Below are positions 488 to 13,310 of a DNA stretch of 64,000 nt, piece by piece. The translations under genes were made by a program, and so were the position numbers. Source of the DNA: Sulfurimonas indica. GTDB lineage: Bacteria; Campylobacterota; Campylobacteria; Campylobacterales; Sulfurimonadaceae. How positions within the stretch are numbered: the first letter of the stretch is position 1; each line of letters opens with the position of its first letter. The stretch lies in the NCBI RefSeq assembly GCF_009192995.1, contig NZ_SDID01000014.1:1-64000 (forward strand). The letters are read 5' to 3'. The notes under the pieces are model-generated. The model worked only from the letters and a program-made list of their open reading frames with translations, made no database searches and was not told where the DNA came from.

Positions 488-1516
488 ATGACACCGATTG
501 AGAGAGTTTTACAAGCCATTGAAGATATCAAAAAAGGGAAGATGGTCATCATGATTGATGATGAAGACAGAGAGAATGAGGGTGATTTGGTTTATGCTGC
601 AGCTTTCTCCACTCCTGAACATGTAAACTTTATGGCAACACATGCAAGAGGGCTGATCTGTGTGGCACTCTCACGTGATATAGCAAACAGGTTAGACCTT
701 AACCCTATGGTAAGTTCAAACACATCATCATATGAGACAGCATTTACTGTTTCTGTCGATGCTAAGAGTGCTTCTACGGGGATCTCTGCAAAAGAGAGAG
801 ATGATACCATCAAGATTCTTGCAAACCCTATCTCAAAAGCTGATGAACTTGTAAAACCCGGGCATATCTTTCCGCTTATCGCAAAAGAGGGTGGTACACT
901 TGTTCGTACAGGGCATACAGAGGGTTCCGTTGACCTTTGTCGTTTAGCAGGGCTTAGTGAAGCGGGTGTGATTTGTGAAATCATCAAAGATGATGGAGAG
1001 ATGGCTCGCCGTGATGATCTGGATATTTTTGCAAAAGAGCATGACCTGCATACTGTTTTTATCTCTGATATCGTAGAGTATCGTTTGGCAAATGAGCGTC
1101 TTGTAAATGAAGTAGATGTAGAGGAGATAGAGTTTTTTGGTGTAAAAGTTACACGTCATACCTTTAAAGACCATGATGGTATTGAGCATACTGCTATCTT
1201 GTTTTATAGTGCAGGAGAAGTTGCAAATGTCCGTGTGCACAATGTTATACCTGACTGTGAGCTTCTTTTAAACCAAGAGAAGTATAACAACCTTATCAAA
1301 TCGATAGAGTATCTCAAACAAAACAGTGGTGTTTTACTTTTTATCAATAAAACAAATCACCAGGATAATGCTGCCATGAAAGAGTTTGGTATTGGTGCAC
1401 AGATTATCAAGTCATTTGGTATCTCTAAAATGAATCTTATCACTTCTTTAAAACCAACTGACTTTGTAGGACTGAGTGGTTTTGGTCTTGAGGTCAATGA
1501 GGTTATTGATATTTAA
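488..1516 (+). CDS. ribBA: 3,4-dihydroxy-2-butanone-4-phosphate synthase with degenerate GTP cyclohydrolase II-like domain
   Basis: 342 residues. The first ~200 are a RibB domain, which converts ribulose 5-phosphate to dihydroxybutanone phosphate plus formate for riboflavin synthesis. The acidic metal/substrate motif DDEDRENEGD is at 24-33, THARGLIC near 51-58 and HTEGSVDL at 143-150. Residues ~200-342 align with the GTP cyclohydrolase II fold, keeping FGIGAQIIKSFGISKMNLIT near the end, but the cysteine triad that binds catalytic zinc is missing. That half is therefore probably structural or regulatory, as reported for several Campylobacterota RibBA proteins. The stop overlaps the apbE start by one base, so the two are coupled; both concern flavins. 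Confidence 0.92.
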   Translation: MTPIERVLQAIEDIKKGKMVIMIDDEDRENEGDLVYAAAFSTPEHVNFMATHARGLICVALSRDIANRLDLNPMVSSNTSSYETAFTVSVDAKSASTGISAKERDDTIKILANPISKADELVKPGHIFPLIAKEGGTLVRTGHTEGSVDLCRLAGLSEAGVICEIIKDDGEMARRDDLDIFAKEHDLHTVFISDIVEYRLANERLVNEVDVEEIEFFGVKVTRHTFKDHDGIEHTAILFYSAGEVANVRVHNVIPDCELLLNQEKYNNLIKSIEYLKQNSGVLLFINKTNHQDNAAMKEFGIGAQIIKSFGISKMNLITSLKPTDFVGLSGFGLEVNEVIDI

Positions 1517-2448
1517 TGCTTCGACTTTTTTTAGTGTTACTGCTGTGTCTTGTGTTAGAGGCAGATGAAGGGCTTGTAACACGTCAAAAGGTACTGATGG
1601 GTACCTTTGTGACGCTTTCTGTTGAAAGTGCGCATAAAGAGCTTATAGAGCCTTCTTTTAGAGTGCTTAACAATATTGAAAAATCTCTCTCCAGTTTTGA
1701 TGAAAACTCTCCGATTTATAAACTCAATCATAACAAAAGTGCTAAACTTGATAGTTACAGTTATGAAGCGCTTCAACTTTCTTTGGAGTATTACAAACAG
1801 ACAGACGGCTACTTTGACATTGCCATTGGAAAAATAACAAAAGATCTGTATCGTTTTGGCCAAGATGAGCGAGTAGCTGTGAAAAAAGAATTAAAAGCAG
1901 CTTCTACAGATATGAACGGGTTTGAGTTCAACAAAGATGAAGCAATCATTACAGACGATATAAAAGTAGACCTTGGTGGAATGGGGAAGGGCTATGGAGT
2001 CGACAAAACAGTAGCATTTTTAAAAAAGCATAAGGTGCAAAAAGCCATTGTTGCATTGAGTGGTGATATTCGCTGTATCGGAGGCTGTAAGGTAATAGTA
2101 AATAATCCTCTGCGTGAGGATATACCTTTAGCAAGCTTTACGATAAATAACAGCGGTGTGAGTACAAGTGGAAATTATAATCGTTATGTAAAAGAGAAAA
2201 AGTATAACCATCTCATCAATCCAAAGACAAAAGAGTCTGCGTCTAACTTTTTGTCTGTAACACTCATTTCAAAACTGCCTTCTGCAACACTTGATGCCTA
2301 TGCGACAGCTGTAAGTGTCATGCCTAAGAACAAAGCCTATATGTTTTTGGATTTACAGCCACTTGCATATATTATTTTAGAATCAGACAAGAGCTTACAT
2401 ATCAGCCATGATATCAATGATTATGTAGATGATCTAAAACGCAAATGA
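1516..2448 (+). CDS. apbE: FAD:protein FMN transferase (ApbE family)
   Basis: 310 residues with a hydrophobic N-terminal signal (about 1-16), so probably periplasmic. ApbE enzymes transfer FMN from FAD onto a Thr or Ser of target proteins. Family marks are the early MGTF segment (29-32), VDLGGMGKGYGVD (151-163), the following ALSGDIRCIGG, and LDAYATAVSVMP near the C terminus, part of the Mg/FAD site. It is coupled to ribBA by a one-base overlap (TAATG). Its 3' end overlaps the convergent cytochrome gene by 15 bp. The likely local substrate is the FMN-binding protein at 4472-5002, which carries a TGAT flavinylation motif; that link is inferred. Confidence 0.9.
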   Translation: MLRLFLVLLLCLVLEADEGLVTRQKVLMGTFVTLSVESAHKELIEPSFRVLNNIEKSLSSFDENSPIYKLNHNKSAKLDSYSYEALQLSLEYYKQTDGYFDIAIGKITKDLYRFGQDERVAVKKELKAASTDMNGFEFNKDEAIITDDIKVDLGGMGKGYGVDKTVAFLKKHKVQKAIVALSGDIRCIGGCKVIVNNPLREDIPLASFTINNSGVSTSGNYNRYVKEKKYNHLINPKTKESASNFLSVTLISKLPSATLDAYATAVSVMPKNKAYMFLDLQPLAYIILESDKSLHISHDINDYVDDLKRK

Positions 2449-3537
2449 TTCTGTTTTTAAGACCTTTATCTTTGTAAGTTCTTTGTCTTTATCAAGTTGC
2501 AGTTCTTTTGCTGCCTCTTTTGATATGAGTCGAAAACCTAGAGTTATTATCAGCTGGTCGCCTTTTTTCAGTTTTGTATCATAGTTGATACTCTTTTTCG
2601 CATAGATGAGTGTATCTTTTAAAACTTCTGTTGCTTCAAAAGGCATGCTTGTTTTTCCATCTTTTCCAAATGTGCGTTTAAATATGTATGGTTTTAGTGC
2701 AATGTGTTTTCCGTCTCGGACGATTTTTACTTCCAAAATACCTTCTCTGTAAGCCTGACCAAAAAGAGCATGATTGGCTTGGTTGATAATATTTACAGTA
2801 AAACCTTTTGTATCTTTTGTTACATCAATATCAATATATTTACCTAAATCTTTTGAGAACTTATGCAGACCCGCTATGCCATGGTAAGCGTGTGTCTTAC
2901 TATCTCTGAGTGTTGTTTTTGAGCCCATTGTCTTTGGCATATGACAGGAGATACAGGTCTCTTTGTCTTTTTTATCAATGTAGGCATCAAGCATAACAAC
3001 ATCGAAGCCGTGAGCATTGTTCACGTGAGAGTGGCATCCCATACAGACATTGCCATTATAGTAGTTTTCATTATTATACTCTATTTGATGATATGGTGAG
3101 TTTTTAGAGCGTTTGATAAGACCGAAAAATGAGCTAGTTGTCTCATACTTTACTTTTGCTTTTTCTTTTTTATCGGCTTCGGCACTGTAAAAATCTCTTT
3201 TTTTGTCACTGAGCACGTTTTTATTTTGCTCGTCATGCTCTTGAATATTAGTTATGGTATGACAATAGACACATGAGATAGGCTCTTCTTTTGCCTCTTT
3301 TTGTGTTTTTGCACTTGGTGAGTGGCATGCTTTACATTCATTTTTATCTGTAACTTGTTTTTCTTTTTCAAAGACAGCTTTATAGATTTTATCACTCTCA
3401 AGAGAGGATTTTCTATGGATGGAACTGTAGTACTCTTTATAGATAAGCGGATGACACTTTTGGCAAACTTTACTCTCACTTGCCAGCAGTGAACTGAGAT
3501 TAAGAACGATAAATAGTGTAAGGAGTAGTTTTTTCAT
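2434..3537 (-). CDS. Periplasmic pentaheme cytochrome c
   Basis: 367 residues with a signal peptide (about 1-20). Five CxxCH heme c sites occur at residues 25-29 (CQKCH), 68-72 (CKACH), 89-93 (CVYCH), 165-169 (CMGCH) and 195-199 (CISCH), a spacing that recalls the cytochrome c554 family. Residues ~220-367 have no heme motif, look beta-rich and may form a separate binding domain. It is the last gene of a five-gene minus-strand operon with a porin, an FMN-binding protein and two membrane proteins, suggesting it passes electrons across the periplasm. Partner and acceptor are unknown. A nitrite- or hydroxylamine-handling enzyme is possible, but no catalytic heme variant (such as CxxCK) is seen. 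Confidence 0.85.
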   Translation of the reverse strand: MKKLLLTLFIVLNLSSLLASESKVCQKCHPLIYKEYYSSIHRKSSLESDKIYKAVFEKEKQVTDKNECKACHSPSAKTQKEAKEEPISCVYCHTITNIQEHDEQNKNVLSDKKRDFYSAEADKKEKAKVKYETTSSFFGLIKRSKNSPYHQIEYNNENYYNGNVCMGCHSHVNNAHGFDVVMLDAYIDKKDKETCISCHMPKTMGSKTTLRDSKTHAYHGIAGLHKFSKDLGKYIDIDVTKDTKGFTVNIINQANHALFGQAYREGILEVKIVRDGKHIALKPYIFKRTFGKDGKTSMPFEATEVLKDTLIYAKKSINYDTKLKKGDQLIITLGFRLISKEAAKELQLDKDKELTKIKVLKTESFAF

Positions 3538-3552
3538 AGAAAAGATTGTACC

Positions 3553-4005
3553 TTATTTATCATAAATTATACTTTTAAAAAGTATAAACAGAATATATAA
3601 TAGTGTTACTTGGAAAAGAAAAAAGGAGATAATTTTCATATAGACAAAGAAAGAAAAGCCCATAAGAATCAAAAAAGGTGAAAAAAGTTCTAAAAAGGCA
3701 CTCAAAAATGTGAGGAGTATGATAAAAGTAATCTCTTTTGTATTACGTTTTTTAGTAAAGATCACAAAATGTAGAACGACCATTACAAAAAGCCCAAAGG
3801 CAAAGATGTGAGGAAGGATGATCTTTAAAAGACCTGTATATGTTTTTGCCGGTGTAAAAGTAGCTTCATTTCCTAGGTAATAGTGCAGAACACTCTCATA
3901 GGAAAATCCAATCTTATCTGCAAATATCATGGCACTGCTTAACAGCAGTAAGATACTAAAGAGTAAAAAGTAGCCTATTGCATATCTATATGCTTTATGT
4001 AACAA
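3553..4005 (-). CDS. Small integral membrane protein of the FMN/cytochrome operon (copy B)
   Basis: 150 residues, about four transmembrane segments; no family recognised. The central stretch YYLGN...F.P is followed by a helix containing PHIFAFGLFVMVVLHF, which places two histidines 13 residues apart, a spacing used by heme-b ligands in membrane cytochromes. It resembles the preceding operon gene in layout (LFGN...FLDP, then a His-containing helix), suggesting paralogues. It overlaps that gene by 11 bp and is followed 15 bp later by the pentaheme cytochrome. A quinone- or heme-b-linked membrane subunit is a reasonable guess, not a demonstrated role. Confidence 0.7.
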   Translation of the reverse strand: MLHKAYRYAIGYFLLFSILLLLSSAMIFADKIGFSYESVLHYYLGNEATFTPAKTYTGLLKIILPHIFAFGLFVMVVLHFVIFTKKRNTKEITFIILLTFLSAFLELFSPFLILMGFSFFVYMKIISFFLFQVTLLYILFILFKSIIYDK

Positions 4006-4471
4006 GGTTGAGCTCCCATAAAGAGCGTAGTGTCATCCAAAGTGCTATGATATGCCATGCAAAAAAGGCGACTAGATAGATAGTCGTAAATTGAGCTGAA
4101 TAAAAATAGGCAGCAGTAAGTGTTATCGGAGTCAAAAGTGCAAAGAAGACGAAAAGATTCATACTTAAAATGGTATTTGTTTTATGATGTAAAAGACGAA
4201 TATATACGGCACTCAGTGTAAGAACAAGCATCATTAAAAAAAAGATTTGCATATGAACAAACTCTAAAAAGACAGATTTGTTCATCGGGTCTAAGAACTC
4301 ATCGGCATTTCCAAAAAGTGTTGTTTGAATGGTACCTGTTGTGATACCCATAGTATGTGATTTTACAAAGACATCAACAAGCAGATAAAGTAGTATAAAA
4401 ATTAAAAGCCTATTGAGTAAGGGCTTCATTATTTTGTCTTGTTTTACATTTTTTATCAGAGTAAAACGCAA
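3995..4471 (-). CDS. Small integral membrane protein of the FMN/cytochrome operon (copy A)
   Basis: 158 residues if translation begins at the TTG at 4471, which has GGGAAG just upstream inside the end of the FMN-protein gene. An ATG 14 codons on (4429) is the alternative and lacks a clear ribosome site. About four transmembrane segments; histidines occur in FVHMQIFF, RLLHHK and FAWHIIALW. The segment LFGNADEFLDP followed by a long helix parallels YYLGNEATFTP in the next gene. No known family recognised. Its position directly after an FMN-binding periplasmic protein suggests it anchors or feeds that protein. Confidence 0.7.
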   Translation of the reverse strand: MRFTLIKNVKQDKIMKPLLNRLLIFILLYLLVDVFVKSHTMGITTGTIQTTLFGNADEFLDPMNKSVFLEFVHMQIFFLMMLVLTLSAVYIRLLHHKTNTILSMNLFVFFALLTPITLTAAYFYSAQFTTIYLVAFFAWHIIALWMTLRSLWELNLVT

Positions 4472-5002
4472 TTACTTCCCTTTTAAAAGTTTATTGTAGA
4501 TTGCAAAGGCGATGCGTGAGCTGTCAGTGACACTTCTTGCACTGAGTGTTGCTCCTGTGATAGTGGGAATATCACGTGAGAGTTGCAGCATTTTATTGGT
4601 TTTTATATCTCTGAACTGCTCTTGCCATGTTTTACTTGGAATATACTCATGTGGTTCATTAAAGGCAATAATCTCGATACCTTTAAGTGTTCCATCGCTG
4701 ATAAGGTACATAACAACACCATTTTTAGAGCGTACTTTTTTATTGATCAAAATTCCGTATCCAAGAATCTTTCCATCTTTTTTTGCTGTATAGATACGAT
4801 AAATTTTGGTTGTCAGTTTTGTTTTTGCTTCTGCCTGTACTTTTTTAAAATCCTCATTTGAAAGAAGGATGTTTTTCTTACTTATGGTAACACTTTTACC
4901 ATAGTTCTCTTTCATGGCATCTATCGGTGAAAGAAGAACTTTCGCCGATAGATTTGCTGTCAAAAAGATAAAGAGTAAAGAGAAGATAAATGTTTTTTTC
5001 AT
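4472..5002 (-). CDS. Periplasmic FMN-binding protein (RnfG/NqrC-type FMN-binding domain)
   Basis: 176 residues with a signal peptide (about 1-20). The C-terminal half matches the FMN-binding domain family of RnfG, NqrC and NosR. The motif TGAT at 149-152, inside RDIPTITGATLSARSV, is the usual ApbE flavinylation signal; Thr152 should carry covalent FMN. The gene starts at ATG 5002, 41 bp after the porin gene, and its stop abuts the next membrane-protein gene. Such single-domain proteins act as one- or two-electron relays in the periplasm. The nearby apbE and the pentaheme cytochrome support a redox role; the actual substrate cannot be read from sequence. Confidence 0.85.
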   Translation of the reverse strand: MKKTFIFSLLFIFLTANLSAKVLLSPIDAMKENYGKSVTISKKNILLSNEDFKKVQAEAKTKLTTKIYRIYTAKKDGKILGYGILINKKVRSKNGVVMYLISDGTLKGIEIIAFNEPHEYIPSKTWQEQFRDIKTNKMLQLSRDIPTITGATLSARSVTDSSRIAFAIYNKLLKGK

Positions 5003-5043
5003 AAGCTAACTCTTGTGAATTTTTTTATCATTATAGCAAAACT

Positions 5044-6291
5044 CTAAAAGATAAAGCCCATAGAGAGACTAAATGTATCAGAATCTATACCACTGTTTGC
5101 ATAATCATTATCTGCCATTGCATAGTCCATTTTAAAAACTACTTGCTCATGCGGATAAAAATTTAGACCTACTGTTGTAATGTTCACTGTATCAAAATTC
5201 TCTGGAGCTGTACCAACTGTTTTACTTTGTGGATTCAGGCTTTCATATTGTACAAAAAGAGGTAAAGTATAACTGCTTTTTGTCAGTGACAAGATATCAA
5301 AACTTGCATTGAGATAGCCTCCTTTGGCCTCTTTTGCTATCGATGGTGTTGTAAAAGCATCTGTTTTTGAACGGGATGTCTCTGTATAAACACCATAGAG
5401 TCTAAAACCACTGTTTGTATAGTCAATATGGGTGTCCCACATAGTAAGAGTATTGTCCGTATACAAAGAAGCACCTAAAAGCAAACCATTGATACCTGTA
5501 TAATCTACTCTAAATGTTCCACCGATTTTTGGATCTGTGTTTTTAAAAGAGCCACCTCGTCCGCCACGTATCCACTTTTCACCATTTGCTGCAGTATCTA
5601 AACCTGTTATGAGTGCAGCTTTGTATGTTAGAGATTCAACTATATCTCCGTACGCCATTACACCACTTTCATTCCAGGTAGAAGGGATAAGATATTTTGC
5701 ACTCTCAGGACGCTGTACTGTTGTAAAGAGTGTTGGCTCATGTCTCTCATTGATAAGTCCCATAGGCACTAAAAAGTTACCAACTCGAATGTTTGCATTT
5801 TGATTGATGAGAAAATCAAGATACATGAACTCTAAAATAACTTCGCCACCTACAGATGTCCCTCCATTATTTTCAATTCCACCGTGTTCAAACTCTATCT
5901 CTGTATTTAAAATGATATTATCAGAGAATTTATATCCTATGTAGGGTACAAACCTATAGACATCTACTGTTGAAGTAGAACCGCTTTGATTTGCAAGTTT
6001 TTTGTTTGCATAATACATTTCTCCATACCCACCTATACTTAATGGTGATTTTGAGTAATAAACTTTTGATGCAGCAGCACCAAGACCACTGTGTGATTTT
6101 TCTGTATCAACTACCGTATAATTAAATCCGGTCTTTAAATCACTTGTTTCATCAATAAGCGTCTGTGTTATCTCTTTTAGAGAAGCTATCTCTTTTTTGA
6201 GTTTAACAATATCCTCTTTCTCATCTGCAAAAGATGCACTACTTGTGAGTAACATACCAGCCAAAGCTAGTGAGATTTTTGTTTTTTTCAT
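5044..6291 (-). CDS. Outer-membrane beta-barrel porin
   Basis: 415 residues. A signal peptide (about 1-22, ending SASFA) precedes a charged coiled-coil-like stretch (about 24-52) and then alternating hydrophobic/polar strands typical of a barrel. The last residue is Phe (GFIF), the usual outer-membrane assembly signal. YIGYKFSDNIILNTEIEFEH and the RVGNFLVPMGLINERHEP region resemble phosphate-selective/DcaP-like porins. It is the first gene of the minus-strand operon that continues with the FMN-binding protein, membrane proteins and pentaheme cytochrome. It may admit the substrate for that system. Two matching inverted repeats lie in its upstream region. Confidence 0.85.
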   Translation of the reverse strand: MKKTKISLALAGMLLTSSASFADEKEDIVKLKKEIASLKEITQTLIDETSDLKTGFNYTVVDTEKSHSGLGAAASKVYYSKSPLSIGGYGEMYYANKKLANQSGSTSTVDVYRFVPYIGYKFSDNIILNTEIEFEHGGIENNGGTSVGGEVILEFMYLDFLINQNANIRVGNFLVPMGLINERHEPTLFTTVQRPESAKYLIPSTWNESGVMAYGDIVESLTYKAALITGLDTAANGEKWIRGGRGGSFKNTDPKIGGTFRVDYTGINGLLLGASLYTDNTLTMWDTHIDYTNSGFRLYGVYTETSRSKTDAFTTPSIAKEAKGGYLNASFDILSLTKSSYTLPLFVQYESLNPQSKTVGTAPENFDTVNITTVGLNFYPHEQVVFKMDYAMADNDYANSGIDSDTFSLSMGFIF

Positions 6292-6315: not shown

Positions 6316-6330
6316 TGATATTTACTATCA
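6316..6330. promoter_or_regulatory. Inverted repeat TGATA-N5-TATCA, proximal copy
   Basis: TGATA TTTAC TATCA, a perfect 5-bp dyad with a 5-nt centre, lies 25 bp upstream of the porin start. The same arms recur at 6383-6397. Spacing and AT-richness are compatible with a Fur/PerR-like or Crp/Fnr-like dimer site, but no regulator can be assigned. Paired copies in a divergent promoter region suggest real operators. Confidence 0.45.
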
Positions 6331-6382
6331 AAATCTTTTATGTTGAAATAGTACAAAATTTTTTTTATAAAGTCAATAGTTA

Positions 6383-6397
6383 TGATAATTAATATCA
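6383..6397. promoter_or_regulatory. Inverted repeat TGATA-N5-TATCA, distal copy
   Basis: TGATA ATTAA TATCA repeats the arms of the site at 6316-6330, with centres 67 bp apart. It sits between the porin operon and ppsA and could act on either. The wider sequence is close to the 7-1-7 layout of Fur boxes, so iron control is one possibility. Confidence 0.45.
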
Positions 6398-6411
6398 ATA
6401 TTTAAGAAAAG

Positions 6412-6433
6412 AATGTTGATATATGACAACATT
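6412..6433. promoter_or_regulatory. Inverted repeat AATGTTG-N8-CAACATT upstream of ppsA
   Basis: A perfect 7-bp dyad with an 8-nt spacer lies about 50 bp before ppsA. It differs from the two TGATA-N5-TATCA sites, so a second regulator, probably of ppsA, is likely. As RNA it would form only a weak hairpin without a U tract, so an operator is more plausible than a terminator. Confidence 0.4.
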
Positions 6434-6480
6434 TTATTTACATTTAGAGGAGTATAATATAAGCGTGTTGATGGAGAATA

Positions 6481-8898
6481 ATGATGGAAAATGTTAAATG
6501 GTTTAACGAAATAGGCATAGAGGATGTTGCAGAAGTTGGTGGAAAAAATGCTTCGTTGGGTGAAATGTATCAAAACCTCACGCAGCTAGGTGTACGTGTT
6601 CCAAATGGTTTTGCCGTTACATCAAGTGCATACAGATATATACTTGATACCAATAATGCATGGGAAAAACTCCATACAGAACTTGATAATTTAGATATAA
6701 ATGATGTTGATAGTTTGCAAAAGCATGGGAAGGCATGTAGAGATATCATATATAGTTGTGAAATGCCTGATGATTTGAAGCAAGATATCTTAAATGCTTA
6801 TGCAAAACTCAAAGCGGAATATGGTGAAGAGCTTTCGCTTGCTGTTCGTTCCTCTGCTACTGCTGAAGACTCTCCTGAAGCCTCTTTTGCAGGACAAAAT
6901 GATACTTATCTGAATATTTCCACGGAAGATGAGCTTTTAGATGCCTACAAAAGGTGTCTCGCCTCCAATTTTACAGACCGTTCTATCCATTATAAGTATG
7001 ACAATGGTTTTGATTATTTAAAAGTCTATCTTTCTGTTGTTGTAATGAAGATGGTTCGCAGTGACATAGGGACAAGTGGTGTAATGTTCTCTCTTGATAC
7101 GGAAACTGGGTTTGAAGATGTTGTTTTTATAAATGCGGCACTTGGGCTTGGTGAAAATGTAGTACAAGGAAGTATCAATCCTGATGCCTTTTATGTTCAC
7201 AAACCGACATATAATGAGGGTTTTCGTGCAGTACTTAAGCGCTCACTGGGCTCAAAAGAGCAAAAGATGATATTTACAGATACCATCAATCTTGACAATA
7301 TCGCAGTTGAGTATACAAAAAATATTCCTACCACTCAAGAGGAACGTAGCCATTTTTGTATTACAGATGAGGATGTGATGGTACTTGCAGGTTATGCTAT
7401 AAAAGTGGAAAATCATTACTCCAAAAAAGCCGGTTTTCATAAACCGATGGATATGGAGTGGGCAAAAGATGGAATAGACGGACATCTCTATATGGTTCAA
7501 GCAAGACCTGAGACTGTAGAGTCCCAAAAAAAAGGTAATGTGCTCGAGATTTATCATCTTAAAGAAAAAGGCAAAGTGATTGTTAGCGGTCAGGCTATCG
7601 GTACAAAAATTGGTCAGGGAAAGGCACACTACATAAAAGATGTCAGTGAGCTGAATACTTTTAAAGCCGGAGAGGTTTTGGTCGCTGATACCACATCACC
7701 TGACTGGGAACCTGTGATGAAGATAGCATCTGCTATTGTTACAAACAAGGGAGGACGTACCTGTCATGCGGCGATACTGAGTCGTGAACTTGGTATTCCT
7801 GCAGTTGTCGGATGTGATAATGCTACAGAGCTATTAACAGATGCTAGTGATGTGACTGTCAGCTGTGCAGAAGGTGAAGAGGGTTATGTTTATGAAGGTA
7901 GACTCGCTTTTGAGATTCAAAAGACAGATCTGAGTAATCTGCCAAAAACGAAAACAGCAATTATGATGAACCTTGGCAACCCTGATCAGGCCTTTTCACT
8001 TTCTTCCCTTCCGGTAGATGGTATTGGACTTGCCCGTATGGAATTTATCATAAATGAATATATCAAAGCACATCCAATGGCACTAAAACATCCGGAGCGT
8101 GTTGATGATAGGACTAGAGAGCAGTTACAGGAGCTCACGCAGGCATATGATTCTATGGAAGATTTCTTTGTAAAAACGCTCTCTGAAGGTGTGGCAACCA
8201 TTGCATCGAGTGTTTATCCTAAACCTTGTGTGGTACGTATGAGTGATTTTAAATCCAATGAGTATGCAACACTTTTAGGTGGAAGCAGTTTTGAACTTCA
8301 AGAAGATAACCCGATGATAGGGTTTCGAGGAGCCTCACGATATGCGCATCCAAATTATGAAGAGGGGTTCGCCTTAGAATGTGCTGCGATGAAACGTGTG
8401 CGTGAGGAGATGGGCTTTACAAATGTAATCTTAATGATTCCATTTTGCCGTAGAGTAGAAGAGGGTAAGCATGTTATCGATACAATGGCGAAATATGGTC
8501 TCAAACAGGGTGAAAACGGACTGCAAATCTATGTAATGTGTGAGATACCAAACAATGTGATCAGTATTGATGCCTTTAGTGAAATCTTTGATGGTTTTAG
8601 TATAGGAAGCAATGATCTCACGCAGCTCACACTTGGCGTGGATCGCGACAGTGAAATCGTTGCATTTGATTATGATGAACGAGATGAGGGTGTTAAGGAG
8701 ATGATTAAGATGGCAGTAGAAGGGTGTAAACGTAACAATCGGCACAGTGGTATCTGTGGTCAGGCACCCTCAGACTATCCTGAAATGGCAGAATATCTGG
8801 TACGACTTGGTGTGGATTCTATGAGCTTAAACCCTGACAGTGTTCTAAAAACCATACAGAACATAGGTTTTTTAGAAAAAAAACTTACAAGAGCCTAA
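6481..8898 (+). CDS. ppsA: Phosphoenolpyruvate synthase
   Basis: 805 residues, normal length. The enzyme converts pyruvate, ATP and water to phosphoenolpyruvate, AMP and phosphate, opening gluconeogenesis in organisms that fix carbon through pyruvate. The N-terminal ATP-grasp domain has GGKNASLGEM and LAVRSSATAEDSPEASFAGQ. The mobile phosphohistidine domain has GGRTCHAAI with the catalytic His near residue 429. The C-terminal barrel has GSNDLTQLTLGVDRDS and the GICGQAPSDYPE segment. Two ATGs occur at 6481 and 6484; GGAG at 6473-6476 fits the second better (7-nt spacing). The next gene starts one base after the stop, so they are cotranscribed. Confidence 0.95.
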   Translation: MMENVKWFNEIGIEDVAEVGGKNASLGEMYQNLTQLGVRVPNGFAVTSSAYRYILDTNNAWEKLHTELDNLDINDVDSLQKHGKACRDIIYSCEMPDDLKQDILNAYAKLKAEYGEELSLAVRSSATAEDSPEASFAGQNDTYLNISTEDELLDAYKRCLASNFTDRSIHYKYDNGFDYLKVYLSVVVMKMVRSDIGTSGVMFSLDTETGFEDVVFINAALGLGENVVQGSINPDAFYVHKPTYNEGFRAVLKRSLGSKEQKMIFTDTINLDNIAVEYTKNIPTTQEERSHFCITDEDVMVLAGYAIKVENHYSKKAGFHKPMDMEWAKDGIDGHLYMVQARPETVESQKKGNVLEIYHLKEKGKVIVSGQAIGTKIGQGKAHYIKDVSELNTFKAGEVLVADTTSPDWEPVMKIASAIVTNKGGRTCHAAILSRELGIPAVVGCDNATELLTDASDVTVSCAEGEEGYVYEGRLAFEIQKTDLSNLPKTKTAIMMNLGNPDQAFSLSSLPVDGIGLARMEFIINEYIKAHPMALKHPERVDDRTREQLQELTQAYDSMEDFFVKTLSEGVATIASSVYPKPCVVRMSDFKSNEYATLLGGSSFELQEDNPMIGFRGASRYAHPNYEEGFALECAAMKRVREEMGFTNVILMIPFCRRVEEGKHVIDTMAKYGLKQGENGLQIYVMCEIPNNVISIDAFSEIFDGFSIGSNDLTQLTLGVDRDSEIVAFDYDERDEGVKEMIKMAVEGCKRNNRHSGICGQAPSDYPEMAEYLVRLGVDSMSLNPDSVLKTIQNIGFLEKKLTRA

Positions 8899-8899
8899 A

Positions 8900-9826
8900 A
8901 TGAAAATTGCATTTTTTGAGATAAAACCGGAAGAACAGGAGTTTTTTACAAAAGCTTTGGTGTCCGAGAAGCTCTTTTTCTTTGAAGATACCATTAATGA
9001 AGTTATTTTAGAAGATAGAGATTATGATATTGTCTCTGTATTTGTGCATTCAAAAATTTCAGATGAGATTTTAGAAAAACTTCCGAAGTTACAATATCTG
9101 CAAACACGTTCAACAGGTTATGATCATATAAAATGTGACTTGCTTTATAAAAAAGGTTTGCTTCTTTCGAATGTGGCAGGATATGCCGGACCTGCTGTCG
9201 CAGAATTTTCCTTCTCTTTACTTTTAAATGCTACACGGCATACGCATACAGCACTAGGGCGAACAAAAGAGGGTGATTCTCACTATAGTGATCTAAAAGG
9301 AATCGAACTCTTTGGCAAAACAATCGGTATTTTGGGCTTAGGTACGATTGGCTCCCAGATGGCACGTATCGCTTGTGGTTTTGGTATGAAAGTACTGACA
9401 TATTCTCGGACAAAAAAAGATATTGTAGATGAACTGCAAATAGATTTTTGTAATCTTGAGATAGTTCTCAAAGAGAGTGATATCATTATGATGGCACTTC
9501 CACTCACACCAGCAACACGGCATATATTAAATATGGAAAATAGTAATTTACTAAAAAAGAGAGCTATAGTTGTAAACACTGCTCGAGGTGAACTTATTGA
9601 AGATAATGTATATGAAAAAGTAGCCAATATATTTTGTTTGGATGTTATTAGTAAGCAAGAATATATAAAAGAAGATAATATTCTCTATACACCACATATG
9701 GCCTACTACACAAATGAAGCACTGCAGAGAATCATGCAGATTTCTCTAAAAAATATAGAAGCATTTTTATCATCAGAGGCATTACCCAACTGTTTAAAAC
9801 TGCCGTGTCAAAAGGACTATAGATGA
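8900..9826 (+). CDS. D-2-hydroxyacid dehydrogenase (NAD-dependent)
   Basis: 308 residues of the D-isomer-specific 2-hydroxyacid dehydrogenase family. The Rossmann motif GLGTIG is at 146-151, PLTPATRHIL at ~201-210, catalytic Arg in NTARGELI (R229) and catalytic His in TPHMAYYT (H266). The segment between Arg and His is slightly shorter than usual. A D-lactate dehydrogenase-like role (pyruvate to D-lactate) would fit its place right after ppsA, but glyoxylate or hydroxypyruvate reduction cannot be excluded. The stop overlaps the start of the P-type ATPase gene by 4 bp. Confidence 0.82.
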   Translation: MKIAFFEIKPEEQEFFTKALVSEKLFFFEDTINEVILEDRDYDIVSVFVHSKISDEILEKLPKLQYLQTRSTGYDHIKCDLLYKKGLLLSNVAGYAGPAVAEFSFSLLLNATRHTHTALGRTKEGDSHYSDLKGIELFGKTIGILGLGTIGSQMARIACGFGMKVLTYSRTKKDIVDELQIDFCNLEIVLKESDIIMMALPLTPATRHILNMENSNLLKKRAIVVNTARGELIEDNVYEKVANIFCLDVISKQEYIKEDNILYTPHMAYYTNEALQRIMQISLKNIEAFLSSEALPNCLKLPCQKDYR

Positions 9827-12402
9827 GAAAGGGAAATGATGAGCTTTCTAATCTGACAGGACTGAGCGAAGAAGAAGTTCATGAACGACTGCAAAAATAC
9901 GGTTACAATGAGATAAATGAGAAAGAGGAGAGTTGGTTACATCGTTTTTTTCGTCGATTTTGGGGACCAATTCCATGGATGATTGAAGTTGCAGCCATTC
10001 TTTCTGCAGTTGTGAAGAGATGGGAAGACTTTATTATCATAATTATTTTACTCTTCGTGAATGCTATAGTTGATTTCTATCAAGAGTCCAAAGCTTTGAA
10101 TGCAATAGCAGTGTTAAAGAAAAGATTAGCACGAAAAGCATTGGTATTACGTGAAAATGAATGGATGGAAATTGATGCAAAAGAGATAGTACCTGATGAT
10201 ATTATAAAAATAAAGATAGGCGATATAGTACCTGCAGATGTTGCGTTGTTGCAAGGAAGTGAGTTTTTGCTTGTTGATCAGTCTGCACTTACAGGTGAAT
10301 CTTTGCCTGTTCGAAAAAAAACAGGTGAGACATTGTATGCAAATGCCATCATTAAACAGGGTGAAATGGTAGCACGGGTTACACAAACAGGAAAAAATAC
10401 CTATTTTGGAAAGACAGTTGGACTTGTGGCAAAAGCCCAAAATGAAGAGGTAAGCCATTTCCAAAAAATGGTTATAAAGGTAGGGAATTTTTTAATCTTT
10501 TTAACACTCTTTATGATTGCTATCATTATTTATCATGGTATCCAAACAAATCAGCCTACAGTTGAGTTATTAATCTTTGCACTTGTTTTGACAATCTCTG
10601 CTATTCCAGTTGCCATGCCGGCAGTTTTAACTGTTACTATGGCCATAGGTGCAAGAGCTCTGGCTGCCAAAGAGGCTATTGTGAGTCGCTTGGCTGCTAT
10701 TGAAGAGATAGCAGGTATGGATGTATTGTGTTCCGATAAAACAGGCACATTAACACAAAACAGAATGAGCCTGGCGGAACCATATTTAGTAAAGGATACA
10801 ACGCAAGAAAAACTGATGCTTTATGCAGCACTGGCAAGTAAAAAAGAGAATCAAGATCCTATTGAAAAGCCTATCTTTGATTATATAGACAAATATAGCC
10901 TTCAAAGTGAAATTGCAGCACATAAATTGAAAAAATTTCTTCCATTTAATCCTGTTCATAAAAGAACAGAAGGGATTTATGAAGATGAAAATTGTGAACT
11001 TATCTTTACAAAAGGTGCCCCGCAGGTTATTATAGAACAGAGTGATGAAAAAGAGTTTGACAAAGAAGCAGCTTATAAAAAAGTAGAATATTTTGCTTCT
11101 GAGGGTTTTCGAACCTTGGGTGTCGCTTATAGAAAATGTGAAGAGGATCTGTACCATTTTATAGGACTGATTCCTCTTTTTGATCCACCTCGTGAAGATT
11201 CTGTAGAAGCTATAGCCGAAGCCAAGGCAAAAGGTATTACAGTTAAAATGATTACAGGAGATAATCTTGCTGTTGCAAAATATATTGCATCTTTGCTAGA
11301 TATTGGAGAAAAGATAGAGGATATCCATATACTTAAAGGAGAATCAGTCGAGGAGTATATCTATCTTTCAAAAATATTATCCAAAGCTATTGTTCAGTCA
11401 TTACAACCTGATGTAGCACAGGAGAAGATAGATGAAGAGGTAACCAAGATTGTTAAAAAAGTTCAAAAAGAGCTTTATAATATGCCGCTTCCAAAAGGGA
11501 GTGTTAAAAAACATGAGTCAGAGATCATTGCACTTATAGAGTATGCTGACGGTTTTGCACAGGTTTTTCCTGAAGATAAATATTTTATAGTCGATGAACT
11601 GCAAAAGGCCGACCATATTGTCGGTATGACAGGAGATGGGGTCAATGATGCACCGGCACTTAAAAAAGCAGATTGTGGAATAGCAGTCAGTGGTGCTACA
11701 GATGCTGCACGTGCTGCAGCCGATATTGTACTTATGGCTCCTGGTCTGAACGTGATTGTTGATGCTATTAAAGAGTCAAGACAGATTTTTGAACGTATGA
11801 AAAGTTATACAATTTTTCGTATTGCTGAAACCATACGTGTCATTATTTTTATGACACTTGCAATTGTTGTATATGATTTTTATCCTATTACCGCTTTGAT
11901 GATAATTATACTTGCACTTCTTAATGATATACCAATTATGAGTATAGCCTATGATAATACAAAGTTGCGTGAGACACCTGTACGCTGGGATATGAAAGAG
12001 GTTTTTGTTCTGGCTTCCTGGTTGGGAATAGCAGGAGTGCTTTCTTCCTTTTTACTCTTTTGGATATTAATCTCATATATGGATCTGCCACTTGAACTGG
12101 TTCAAAGTCTGTTTTTTGCAAAACTGGTTATTGCCGGACATGGTACAATATACAATATGCGTATAGATGACTGGTTCTTCAAACGGCCATGGCCTTCTAG
12201 GACACTTTTTGGTGCAACTTTTTTAAGTCGTGTTACTGGAACAATAATTGCCGTATATGGTTTTGATCTGATGGCGCCAATCGGTTGGGGATGGGCTGGC
12301 TATATGTGGGCTTATGCTCTTGTGTGGTTTGTGTTTAATGATGCTGTAAAAATGGCTGTACTTAAATATTATAGAACAAGATATAATGAGGATATCATAT
12401 GA
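9823..12402 (+). CDS. P-type ATPase, plasma-membrane proton-pump type (P3A) with extra insertion
   Basis: 859 residues. Phosphorylation motif CSDKTGTLTQN with Asp305; actuator-domain TGES at 157-160; SAIPVAMPAVLT in the ion-binding membrane helix (259-270); hinge MTGDGVNDAPALKKAD near 602-617. PVAMP and the overall N and C ends match fungal/plant-type H+-ATPases, found also in some bacteria and archaea. Residues ~505-570, between MITGDNLAVAKYI and YADGFAQVFPEDKY, hold a charged helical insertion absent from the usual eukaryotic proteins. The gene starts inside the dehydrogenase stop and overlaps the LOG gene by 4 bp. Proton export or pH homeostasis is the likely role; transport of another cation is possible. 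Confidence 0.88.
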   Translation: MRKGNDELSNLTGLSEEEVHERLQKYGYNEINEKEESWLHRFFRRFWGPIPWMIEVAAILSAVVKRWEDFIIIIILLFVNAIVDFYQESKALNAIAVLKKRLARKALVLRENEWMEIDAKEIVPDDIIKIKIGDIVPADVALLQGSEFLLVDQSALTGESLPVRKKTGETLYANAIIKQGEMVARVTQTGKNTYFGKTVGLVAKAQNEEVSHFQKMVIKVGNFLIFLTLFMIAIIIYHGIQTNQPTVELLIFALVLTISAIPVAMPAVLTVTMAIGARALAAKEAIVSRLAAIEEIAGMDVLCSDKTGTLTQNRMSLAEPYLVKDTTQEKLMLYAALASKKENQDPIEKPIFDYIDKYSLQSEIAAHKLKKFLPFNPVHKRTEGIYEDENCELIFTKGAPQVIIEQSDEKEFDKEAAYKKVEYFASEGFRTLGVAYRKCEEDLYHFIGLIPLFDPPREDSVEAIAEAKAKGITVKMITGDNLAVAKYIASLLDIGEKIEDIHILKGESVEEYIYLSKILSKAIVQSLQPDVAQEKIDEEVTKIVKKVQKELYNMPLPKGSVKKHESEIIALIEYADGFAQVFPEDKYFIVDELQKADHIVGMTGDGVNDAPALKKADCGIAVSGATDAARAAADIVLMAPGLNVIVDAIKESRQIFERMKSYTIFRIAETIRVIIFMTLAIVVYDFYPITALMIIILALLNDIPIMSIAYDNTKLRETPVRWDMKEVFVLASWLGIAGVLSSFLLFWILISYMDLPLELVQSLFFAKLVIAGHGTIYNMRIDDWFFKRPWPSRTLFGATFLSRVTGTIIAVYGFDLMAPIGWGWAGYMWAYALVWFVFNDAVKMAVLKYYRTRYNEDII

Positions 12403-13310
12403 AAAATGAAAAAACAAGTTTACCTTGGGAACATCCCAAACTAAAAGCGGAAGATCCAAAATCGTTAGAGCTTATTAAAAAGATTATGAAAAGTCCTACA
12501 TATACTATGGCTGAACAAGATGAAGCGTTTATGCACTCTTATGAAGCTAGAGGAATTCGTCTTGAAATCGACTATTTAAAAGCAGAGCTGAAGATGAATG
12601 AATATGGCATCGAGCATACGATAGTTGTCTTTGGGAGTGCACGTATAGTTGAGCGCGAGACTGCACTGAAACGACTGCGAACCATTGAAGAGATGCTTCA
12701 AAAAAATTCAGATGATAGAGAGCTTTTATGGGAACTGTATGTTGCTGAACGTATGGTTGGAAAGAGTATCTATTATGAAGATGCAAGAAAATTTGGGCGT
12801 TTGGTAGGAAAAAGCGGAGAGACTGTCGAAGATTGTCGTGTTACTTTAATGACAGGTGGTGGTCCAGGTATCATGGAAGCAGCTAACCGTGGCGCTTATG
12901 ATGTTGGAGCAAAAAGTATAGGACTCAATATCAAACTCCCGCATGAACAGTATCCAAATCCTTATATAACCCCTGATTTATGTTTCTTGTTTCACTATTT
13001 TGCAATAAGAAAGCTTCATTTTTTAAACAGAGCCAAGGCTTTGGTTGTGTATCCTGGAGGTTTTGGAACTTTTGATGAACTTTTTGAGACCTTGACACTT
13101 GTTCAGACAGGAAAAACAAAAGATATACCTGTGATTTTAGTAGGGAAAAAGTACTGGAAAAAAGCGATAGACTTTGAATTTTTAAAAGATGAAGGCGTAA
13201 TCGCTCCTGAAGATATAGATGTATTTCATTATGTAGATAATGCTGAAGAAGCTTGGGAGTATATACTCTCTTGGCATAAAAAACAAGGAAAACCACTCTA
13301 TGAATCTTAA
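12399..13310 (+). CDS. LOG-family nucleotide phosphoribohydrolase-like protein
   Basis: 303 residues of the LOG/TIGR00730 family (often mislabelled lysine decarboxylase). MTGGGPGIMEAANRGA and the signature PGGFGTFDELFE are intact; these bind nucleotide monophosphates and cleave the base from ribose 5-phosphate in characterised members. The N-terminal ~100 residues are an extra helical region, as in longer LOG relatives. It overlaps both neighbours: 4 bp with the ATPase gene and 11 bp with the DUF4010 gene. Its place in an ion-transport operon is unexplained; a role in nucleotide turnover is inferred. Confidence 0.85.
   Translation: MKNEKTSLPWEHPKLKAEDPKSLELIKKIMKSPTYTMAEQDEAFMHSYEARGIRLEIDYLKAELKMNEYGIEHTIVVFGSARIVERETALKRLRTIEEMLQKNSDDRELLWELYVAERMVGKSIYYEDARKFGRLVGKSGETVEDCRVTLMTGGGPGIMEAANRGAYDVGAKSIGLNIKLPHEQYPNPYITPDLCFLFHYFAIRKLHFLNRAKALVVYPGGFGTFDELFETLTLVQTGKTKDIPVILVGKKYWKKAIDFEFLKDEGVIAPEDIDVFHYVDNAEEAWEYILSWHKKQGKPLYES

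Follow-up and report, generated by a model that had tools for sequence, protein, structure and literature searches.

A set of genes conserved in sulfur-oxidising Sulfurimonas and its relatives probably reduces iron outside the cytoplasm for uptake. In the stretch of Sulfurimonas indica DNA analysed here (the window, 64,000 nt of a 2.09 Mb genome in 52 contigs), the set comprises an outer-membrane porin, an exported FMN-binding protein, two membrane proteins, here called MemA and MemB, and a pentaheme cytochrome, with the gene for the FMN transferase ApbE facing it. Its regulation and architecture are well supported. Following the same logic as the PepSY and DUF4405 flavinylation systems, we propose an assimilatory ferric reductase of the cell envelope that is controlled by Fur and makes Fe(II) for FeoB. 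We hold this reading to be rather likely, with heme binding and iron reduction as its putative steps.

The five genes on one strand and the facing apbE described in the initial annotation were all recovered as open reading frames (Table 1), and Pfam bears out its assignments of porin, FMN protein and cytochrome (Porin_O_P, FMN_bind and cytochrome c7/c554). The start of MemA directly abuts the stop of the FMN protein, the MemA and MemB genes overlap (3995-4005), the MemB and cytochrome genes lie 15 bases apart, and the RibBA and ApbE frames have base 1516 in common.

Table 1 Features of the locus in the Sulfurimonas indica window.
Feature	Coordinates	Strand	Evidence or remark
RibBA (riboflavin precursor synthesis)	488-1516	+	NF006804, 537 bits, above cut-off
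ApbE, FAD:protein FMN transferase	1516-2448	+	E=7e-59; convergent to the five-gene set
Pentaheme c-type cytochrome, periplasmic	2434-3537	-	PF14522 and PF13435 above cut-off; clade-specific accessory gene
MemB, four-helix membrane protein, paralogue of MemA	3553-4005	-	no family match
MemA, four-helix membrane protein	3995-4471	-	no family match
Exported FMN-binding protein	4472-5002	-	PF04205 (FMN_bind), E=5e-6, above cut-off
Outer-membrane porin (Porin_O_P-like), first gene of the operon	5044-6291	-	PF07396, E=4e-5, above cut-off
Fur-box-like palindrome, proximal	6316-6330	no strand	TGATATTTACTATCA, 2 mismatches
Fur-box-like palindrome, distal	6383-6397	no strand	TGATAATTAATATCA, 1 mismatch to TGATAATNATTATCA

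When 84,980 species genomes were scanned with the FMN protein as query, 46 loci emerged, nearly all in Campylobacterota. The sole match outside the phylum (L071), found on genome contigs in the same scan, has no detectable MemA or MemB beside it. The MemA profile matches 38 of 397 Campylobacterota genomes, from 8 genera of one order. Most complete loci among the 46 show the order porin–FMN protein–MemA–MemB with a convergent apbE, almost every relative has the porin next to the FMN gene, and larger regions from distant families of Campylobacterales keep the same gene order; the ribBA–apbE pair recurs in many Sulfurimonas loci. As order and direction are repeated in many loci of several families within one order, the arrangement is not due to chance. 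Of the five-gene order that the initial annotation had proposed to look for elsewhere, porin–FMN–MemA–MemB, usually with apbE, is thus kept across several families, while the cytochrome lies outside the conserved core. Exceptions include two loci that have no adjacent ApbE (L117, L134) and three in which apbE stands at the opposite end (L121, L122, L124). At a further locus (L123 of genome G352, 6374-12839), which is possibly a respiratory variant, FMN protein, MemA and MemB have no porin beside them, and the series of genes behind them begins with one for a NapC/NrfH-like cytochrome. The MemA region of L021 (1519-1920) contains an in-frame TAA, with the C-terminal part of MemA in another frame; the genome that carries this gene (G011) is rated 100% complete and consists of one contig. 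Our literature search, which covered little of the subscription literature, found no description of the locus.

The initial annotation overlooked the regulation of the operon. With TGATAATNATTATCA as reference Fur box and the best site in the 180 bp upstream scored by mismatches, the region before the porin contains two Fur-box-like palindromes 67 bp apart, the distal one some 106 bp upstream of the start of the porin. We compared 44 distinct porin genes adjoining an FMN gene with 112 control promoters from the same loci. A site with at most two mismatches precedes 37 of the 44 porins, whereas only 4/112 control promoters have one (Fisher p=3e-24, an overstated value because related loci are not independent and were treated as if they were). 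Three of the four control matches, in L056, L058 and L059, belong to one type of promoter, that of an imelysin operon which diverges from the FMN gene. In the seven porin upstream regions that have no such site, the best candidate shows 3 (three regions), 5 (one) or 6 (three) mismatches, and misplaced start codons may account for some of them. Paired sites with up to three mismatches occur in 29/44 of the porin upstream regions, mostly 56-71 bp apart and most commonly 67-70. The intergenic region that holds the sites is common to the porin and a divergent PEP synthase/PPDK-like gene at 6481-8898. We do not favour assigning the sites to this gene, because they accompany the porin regardless of which gene diverges from it, and they recur in distant families where the gene flanking the porin differs. 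At the level of sequence motif, a Fur box at the promoter and its conservation in relatives, as expected of a Fur-regulated iron locus, are both found, and the operon is very likely under iron-responsive control.

Close matches to the Fur box are rare in the genome. Seven sites with at most one mismatch were found in the 2.09 Mb, as against none for a reversed control pattern. Three lie inside other open reading frames, one precedes the operon, one precedes a feoB region and the remaining two stand upstream of a porin-like gene close to a FecCD transporter. The genome has two FUR-family genes. Sites with two mismatches are less specific (45 in the genome versus 12 for the control); one of them lies 82 bp before the gene for a TonB-dependent receptor, which is followed by a PepSY_TM protein. 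This succession of Fur-box-like site, receptor and PepSY_TM protein (L141, 2005-5475, contig C23 of the same genome) is a candidate second iron-reduction locus. On contig C12 (L084, 4021-5411), two Fur-box-like sites precede a 433-aa exported protein that has no Pfam match, appears porin-like by eye and is encoded near the FecCD transporter and cobalamin-type genes.

The neighbours of the unit in relatives point in the same direction. In L056, L058 and L059, an imelysin–DHOR–imelysin–FA_hydroxylase–porin operon (Pfam M75, DHOR, M75) runs divergently from the FMN gene, and its porin is homologous to that of the window. Imelysin–di-heme peroxidase operons of the PA4370-PA4373 type are under Fur regulation and have been linked to the uptake of iron (PMC3143127). 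Imelysin was not found in the window's own genome. A gene for MntP, a putative manganese efflux family, lies between MemB and apbE in eight loci and near apbE in L121, L122 and L124; these placements, beside MemB or ApbE, fall in two separate clades. Another gene found between MemB and apbE, in L128 (7649-8230), encodes a cytochrome b561 (PF01292, with a weak match to DUF4405). Imelysin and MntP link the unit to the handling of iron or manganese, and, taken together with the Fur-box-like sites, such neighbours favour a role in assimilating iron over electron transfer to a dissimilatory or unspecified acceptor. They could also be reconciled with a reductase for one defined metal species, such as a particular ferric chelate or manganese, for which the porin would be specific: the porin is dedicated to the unit, MntP adjoins it in two clades, and a homologous porin is part of the imelysin operon in some relatives. 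We consider this narrower role improbable, as TonB-dependent receptors for chelates are encoded elsewhere in the genome and none in the operon, and as a Fur-type site and co-regulation with feoB favour iron in general.

The FMN protein has a hydrophobic N-terminus and carries the flavinylation motif TGAT, whose threonine, Thr152 (codon 4547-4549), is present in 54/54 alignment rows that have a residue at this position. An exported FMN_bind protein with an S/TGAT-type threonine and an ApbE encoded in the locus, the hallmarks of an ApbE-flavinylated extracytosolic electron-transfer system, thus occur together. From the family, to which both domain and motif belong, we infer that Thr152 is covalently flavinylated. 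The genome encodes a single FMN_bind protein and a single ApbE, both at this locus, so the FMN protein is the one that ApbE serves, barring substrates from families other than FMN_bind; the flavin/heme electron-transfer set seen in the initial annotation hence appears dedicated to one FMN protein. A flavin carrier under Fur-type control would also fit an iron-sparing or redox-homeostasis module, in which flavin replaces iron-rich carriers for a non-iron periplasmic reduction during iron shortage, much as flavodoxin replaces ferredoxin. Iron starvation induces iron-sparing and redox-stress systems as well, which counts against reading the operon as a ferric-reduction system. However, the operon of one clade includes a five-heme cytochrome, which is costly in iron, and the conserved porin and the iron- and metal-transport neighbours favour uptake, so that we give an iron-sparing role little credence.

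MemA and MemB are paralogues (hhalign E=4e-10, probability 96.7), and AlphaFold2 predicts each as a four-helix bundle in which helix 1 is followed by a short additional one (pLDDT 90.5 for MemA and 91.1 for MemB). His73 of MemA (codon 4253-4255) is conserved in 55/55 sequences and His140 (codon 4052-4054) in 52/54, with asparagine in two divergent members, L040 and L134; Arg92 is invariant. MemB has two histidines on helix 2, His66 (codon 3808-3810) and His79 (codon 3769-3771), each present in 54/54 sequences and 13 residues apart, and no histidine on helix 4. Similarly spaced histidine pairs on one helix hold the two hemes of cytochrome b. That two membrane proteins adjoining a flavoprotein have four almost invariant histidines between them suggests that MemA and MemB bind b heme; the asparagine at position 140 in two members and the missing helix-4 histidine of MemB weigh against it. 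The ligands may be paired within MemA (His73–His140), as in a CtaA-type bundle, or across a pseudo-twofold interface (MemA His73–MemB His66).

Searches for relatives of the pair agree with the earlier view in that the membrane proteins match no known complex. Neither protein matches Pfam at E<=1 or belongs to any Pfam or NCBIfam family among those tested. None of the 51 MemA and 35 MemB members matches PepSY, DUF4405 or MsrQ-type models at E<=0.1, and two of the 35 MemB sequences weakly match cytochrome b561 (best 0.0017). Profile searches of PDB sequences with MemA and MemB returned nothing relevant, and comparison of both AlphaFold2 models with the PDB by Foldseek and VIA-align gave helical bundles and no significant match. 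It is conceivable, although we would not expect it on balance, that MemA and MemB are a heterodimeric b-type cytochrome split over two subunits, unrelated in sequence to those described, and thereby a flavin-linked transmembrane electron carrier of a new class. Together with the porin and, in one clade, the pentaheme cytochrome, they would then make up an assimilatory iron reductase under Fur control that operates at or across the outer membrane.

The cytochrome has five conserved CXXCH motifs, at residues 25, 68, 89, 165 and 195, and its residues 21-97 match a solved cytochrome c552 (5ze8, E=2e-8), a likeness that implies no function. In the tree, it is found in seven members that form one Sulfurimonas clade (support 100/100), and also in L021. 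The FMN protein of L021 resembles that of L038, outside the cytochrome clade. The five-gene unit of the initial annotation does not therefore extend to most relatives, which have no such cytochrome; the pentaheme cytochrome is an accessory and not part of the conserved core. The same distribution weighs against the line taken in that annotation, namely dissimilatory or extracellular electron transfer in which electrons from respiration would reach an acceptor outside the cell by way of the porin and the multiheme cytochrome. The combination of porin and pentaheme cytochrome in the window's clade speaks for such a route, as do the likely membrane electron carriers. However, the cytochrome scores below cut-off with the MtrC/MtrF model (23.7 vs 30) and far below it with the OmcA/MtrC model (22.6 vs 209), and Fur-type control suits iron scarcity rather than iron as a bulk acceptor. 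We therefore regard respiratory transfer to the outside as unlikely.

In the assimilatory ferric reduction that we favour, Fur would repress the operon when iron is plentiful, and iron starvation would switch it on. The porin would admit Fe(III) or small Fe(III) chelates to the periplasm. MemA and MemB, to judge from their paralogy, four-helix bundles and histidines, may together make up a membrane cytochrome with b heme, split over two subunits, that is reduced by the quinol pool, presumably by menaquinol, and passes the electrons to the FMN that ApbE would have attached to Thr152 of the periplasmic protein. The reduced flavoprotein would convert Fe(III) to Fe(II), with the pentaheme cytochrome as a further relay in the window's clade, and Fe(II) would be imported by FeoB, whose gene region also has a Fur-box-like site upstream. 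If correct, this scheme extends the range of flavinylation-linked carriers by a new transmembrane module, suggests a role that can be tested for several hypothetical proteins so far without a name, and makes iron acquisition in the Sulfurimonas group accessible to a few gene deletions. Sulfurimonas members are reported to occur in high numbers in hydrothermal plumes and marine redoxclines (PMC10066037), settings in which the supply and form of iron vary with oxygen.

Comparison with known systems places the set near several families. Its FMN_bind domain, with a threonine as the predicted site of ApbE-dependent flavinylation, recalls RnfG and NqrC, and a weak similarity to RnfG is detectable (E=9e-8). 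Membership of Rnf or Nqr was rejected, as the RnfG scores fall far below cut-off (32 vs 230, 22.6 vs 205 and 20.5 vs 102 bits), and inspection of the gene neighbours revealed no Rnf or Nqr genes beside the FMN protein. An Mtr/Omc porin–cytochrome conduit was likewise rejected on the two sub-threshold models and the count of five hemes, as was assignment by sequence profile of MemA and MemB to PepSY, MsrQ or DUF4405, which gave no match. The best structural likeness of the MemA model is to the C-terminal four-helix half of the heme A synthase CtaA (6a2j; TM 0.62, Z 5.5, rmsd 3.9 over 131), a lead only, as there is no sequence similarity, the Foldseek E-value is 4.9 and Z lies within the helical-bundle background. 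The ligand histidines of CtaA are on bundle helices 2 and 4. The imelysin operons of the PA4370-PA4373 type stand outside the window's operon, and in L056, L058 and L059 they have a promoter region in common with the FMN gene.

DUF4405 proteins are b-heme cytochromes encoded near apbE (PMC11334425). Like DUF4405, FezC and MsrQ-type proteins, for which b heme has been shown or proposed, MemA and MemB are small membrane proteins with conserved histidines near a protein predicted to be flavinylated. However, the pair consists of two 4-helix subunits in place of one 6-helix protein and has no sequence match to DUF4405 or MsrQ-type models. The closest parallel in logic is offered by flavinylation clusters with PepSY proteins, which are Fur-repressed in Shewanella and Caulobacter and have been proposed to serve iron reduction and assimilation (PMC8238504). 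As in those PepSY/DUF2271/ApbE clusters, an ApbE-flavinylated periplasmic protein would be served by a membrane electron carrier under Fur control, represented here by Fur-box-like sites. In contrast, the carrier here is the MemA/MemB pair, which has no PepSY match, one FMN_bind protein would serve as the sole substrate, and the operon begins with a porin; a PepSY_TM protein of Sulfurimonas indica is encoded elsewhere, behind the TonB-dependent receptor. By analogy, the set would work in the manner of the flavinylation-linked iron-reduction systems described before, but with another kind of membrane part and with a porin.
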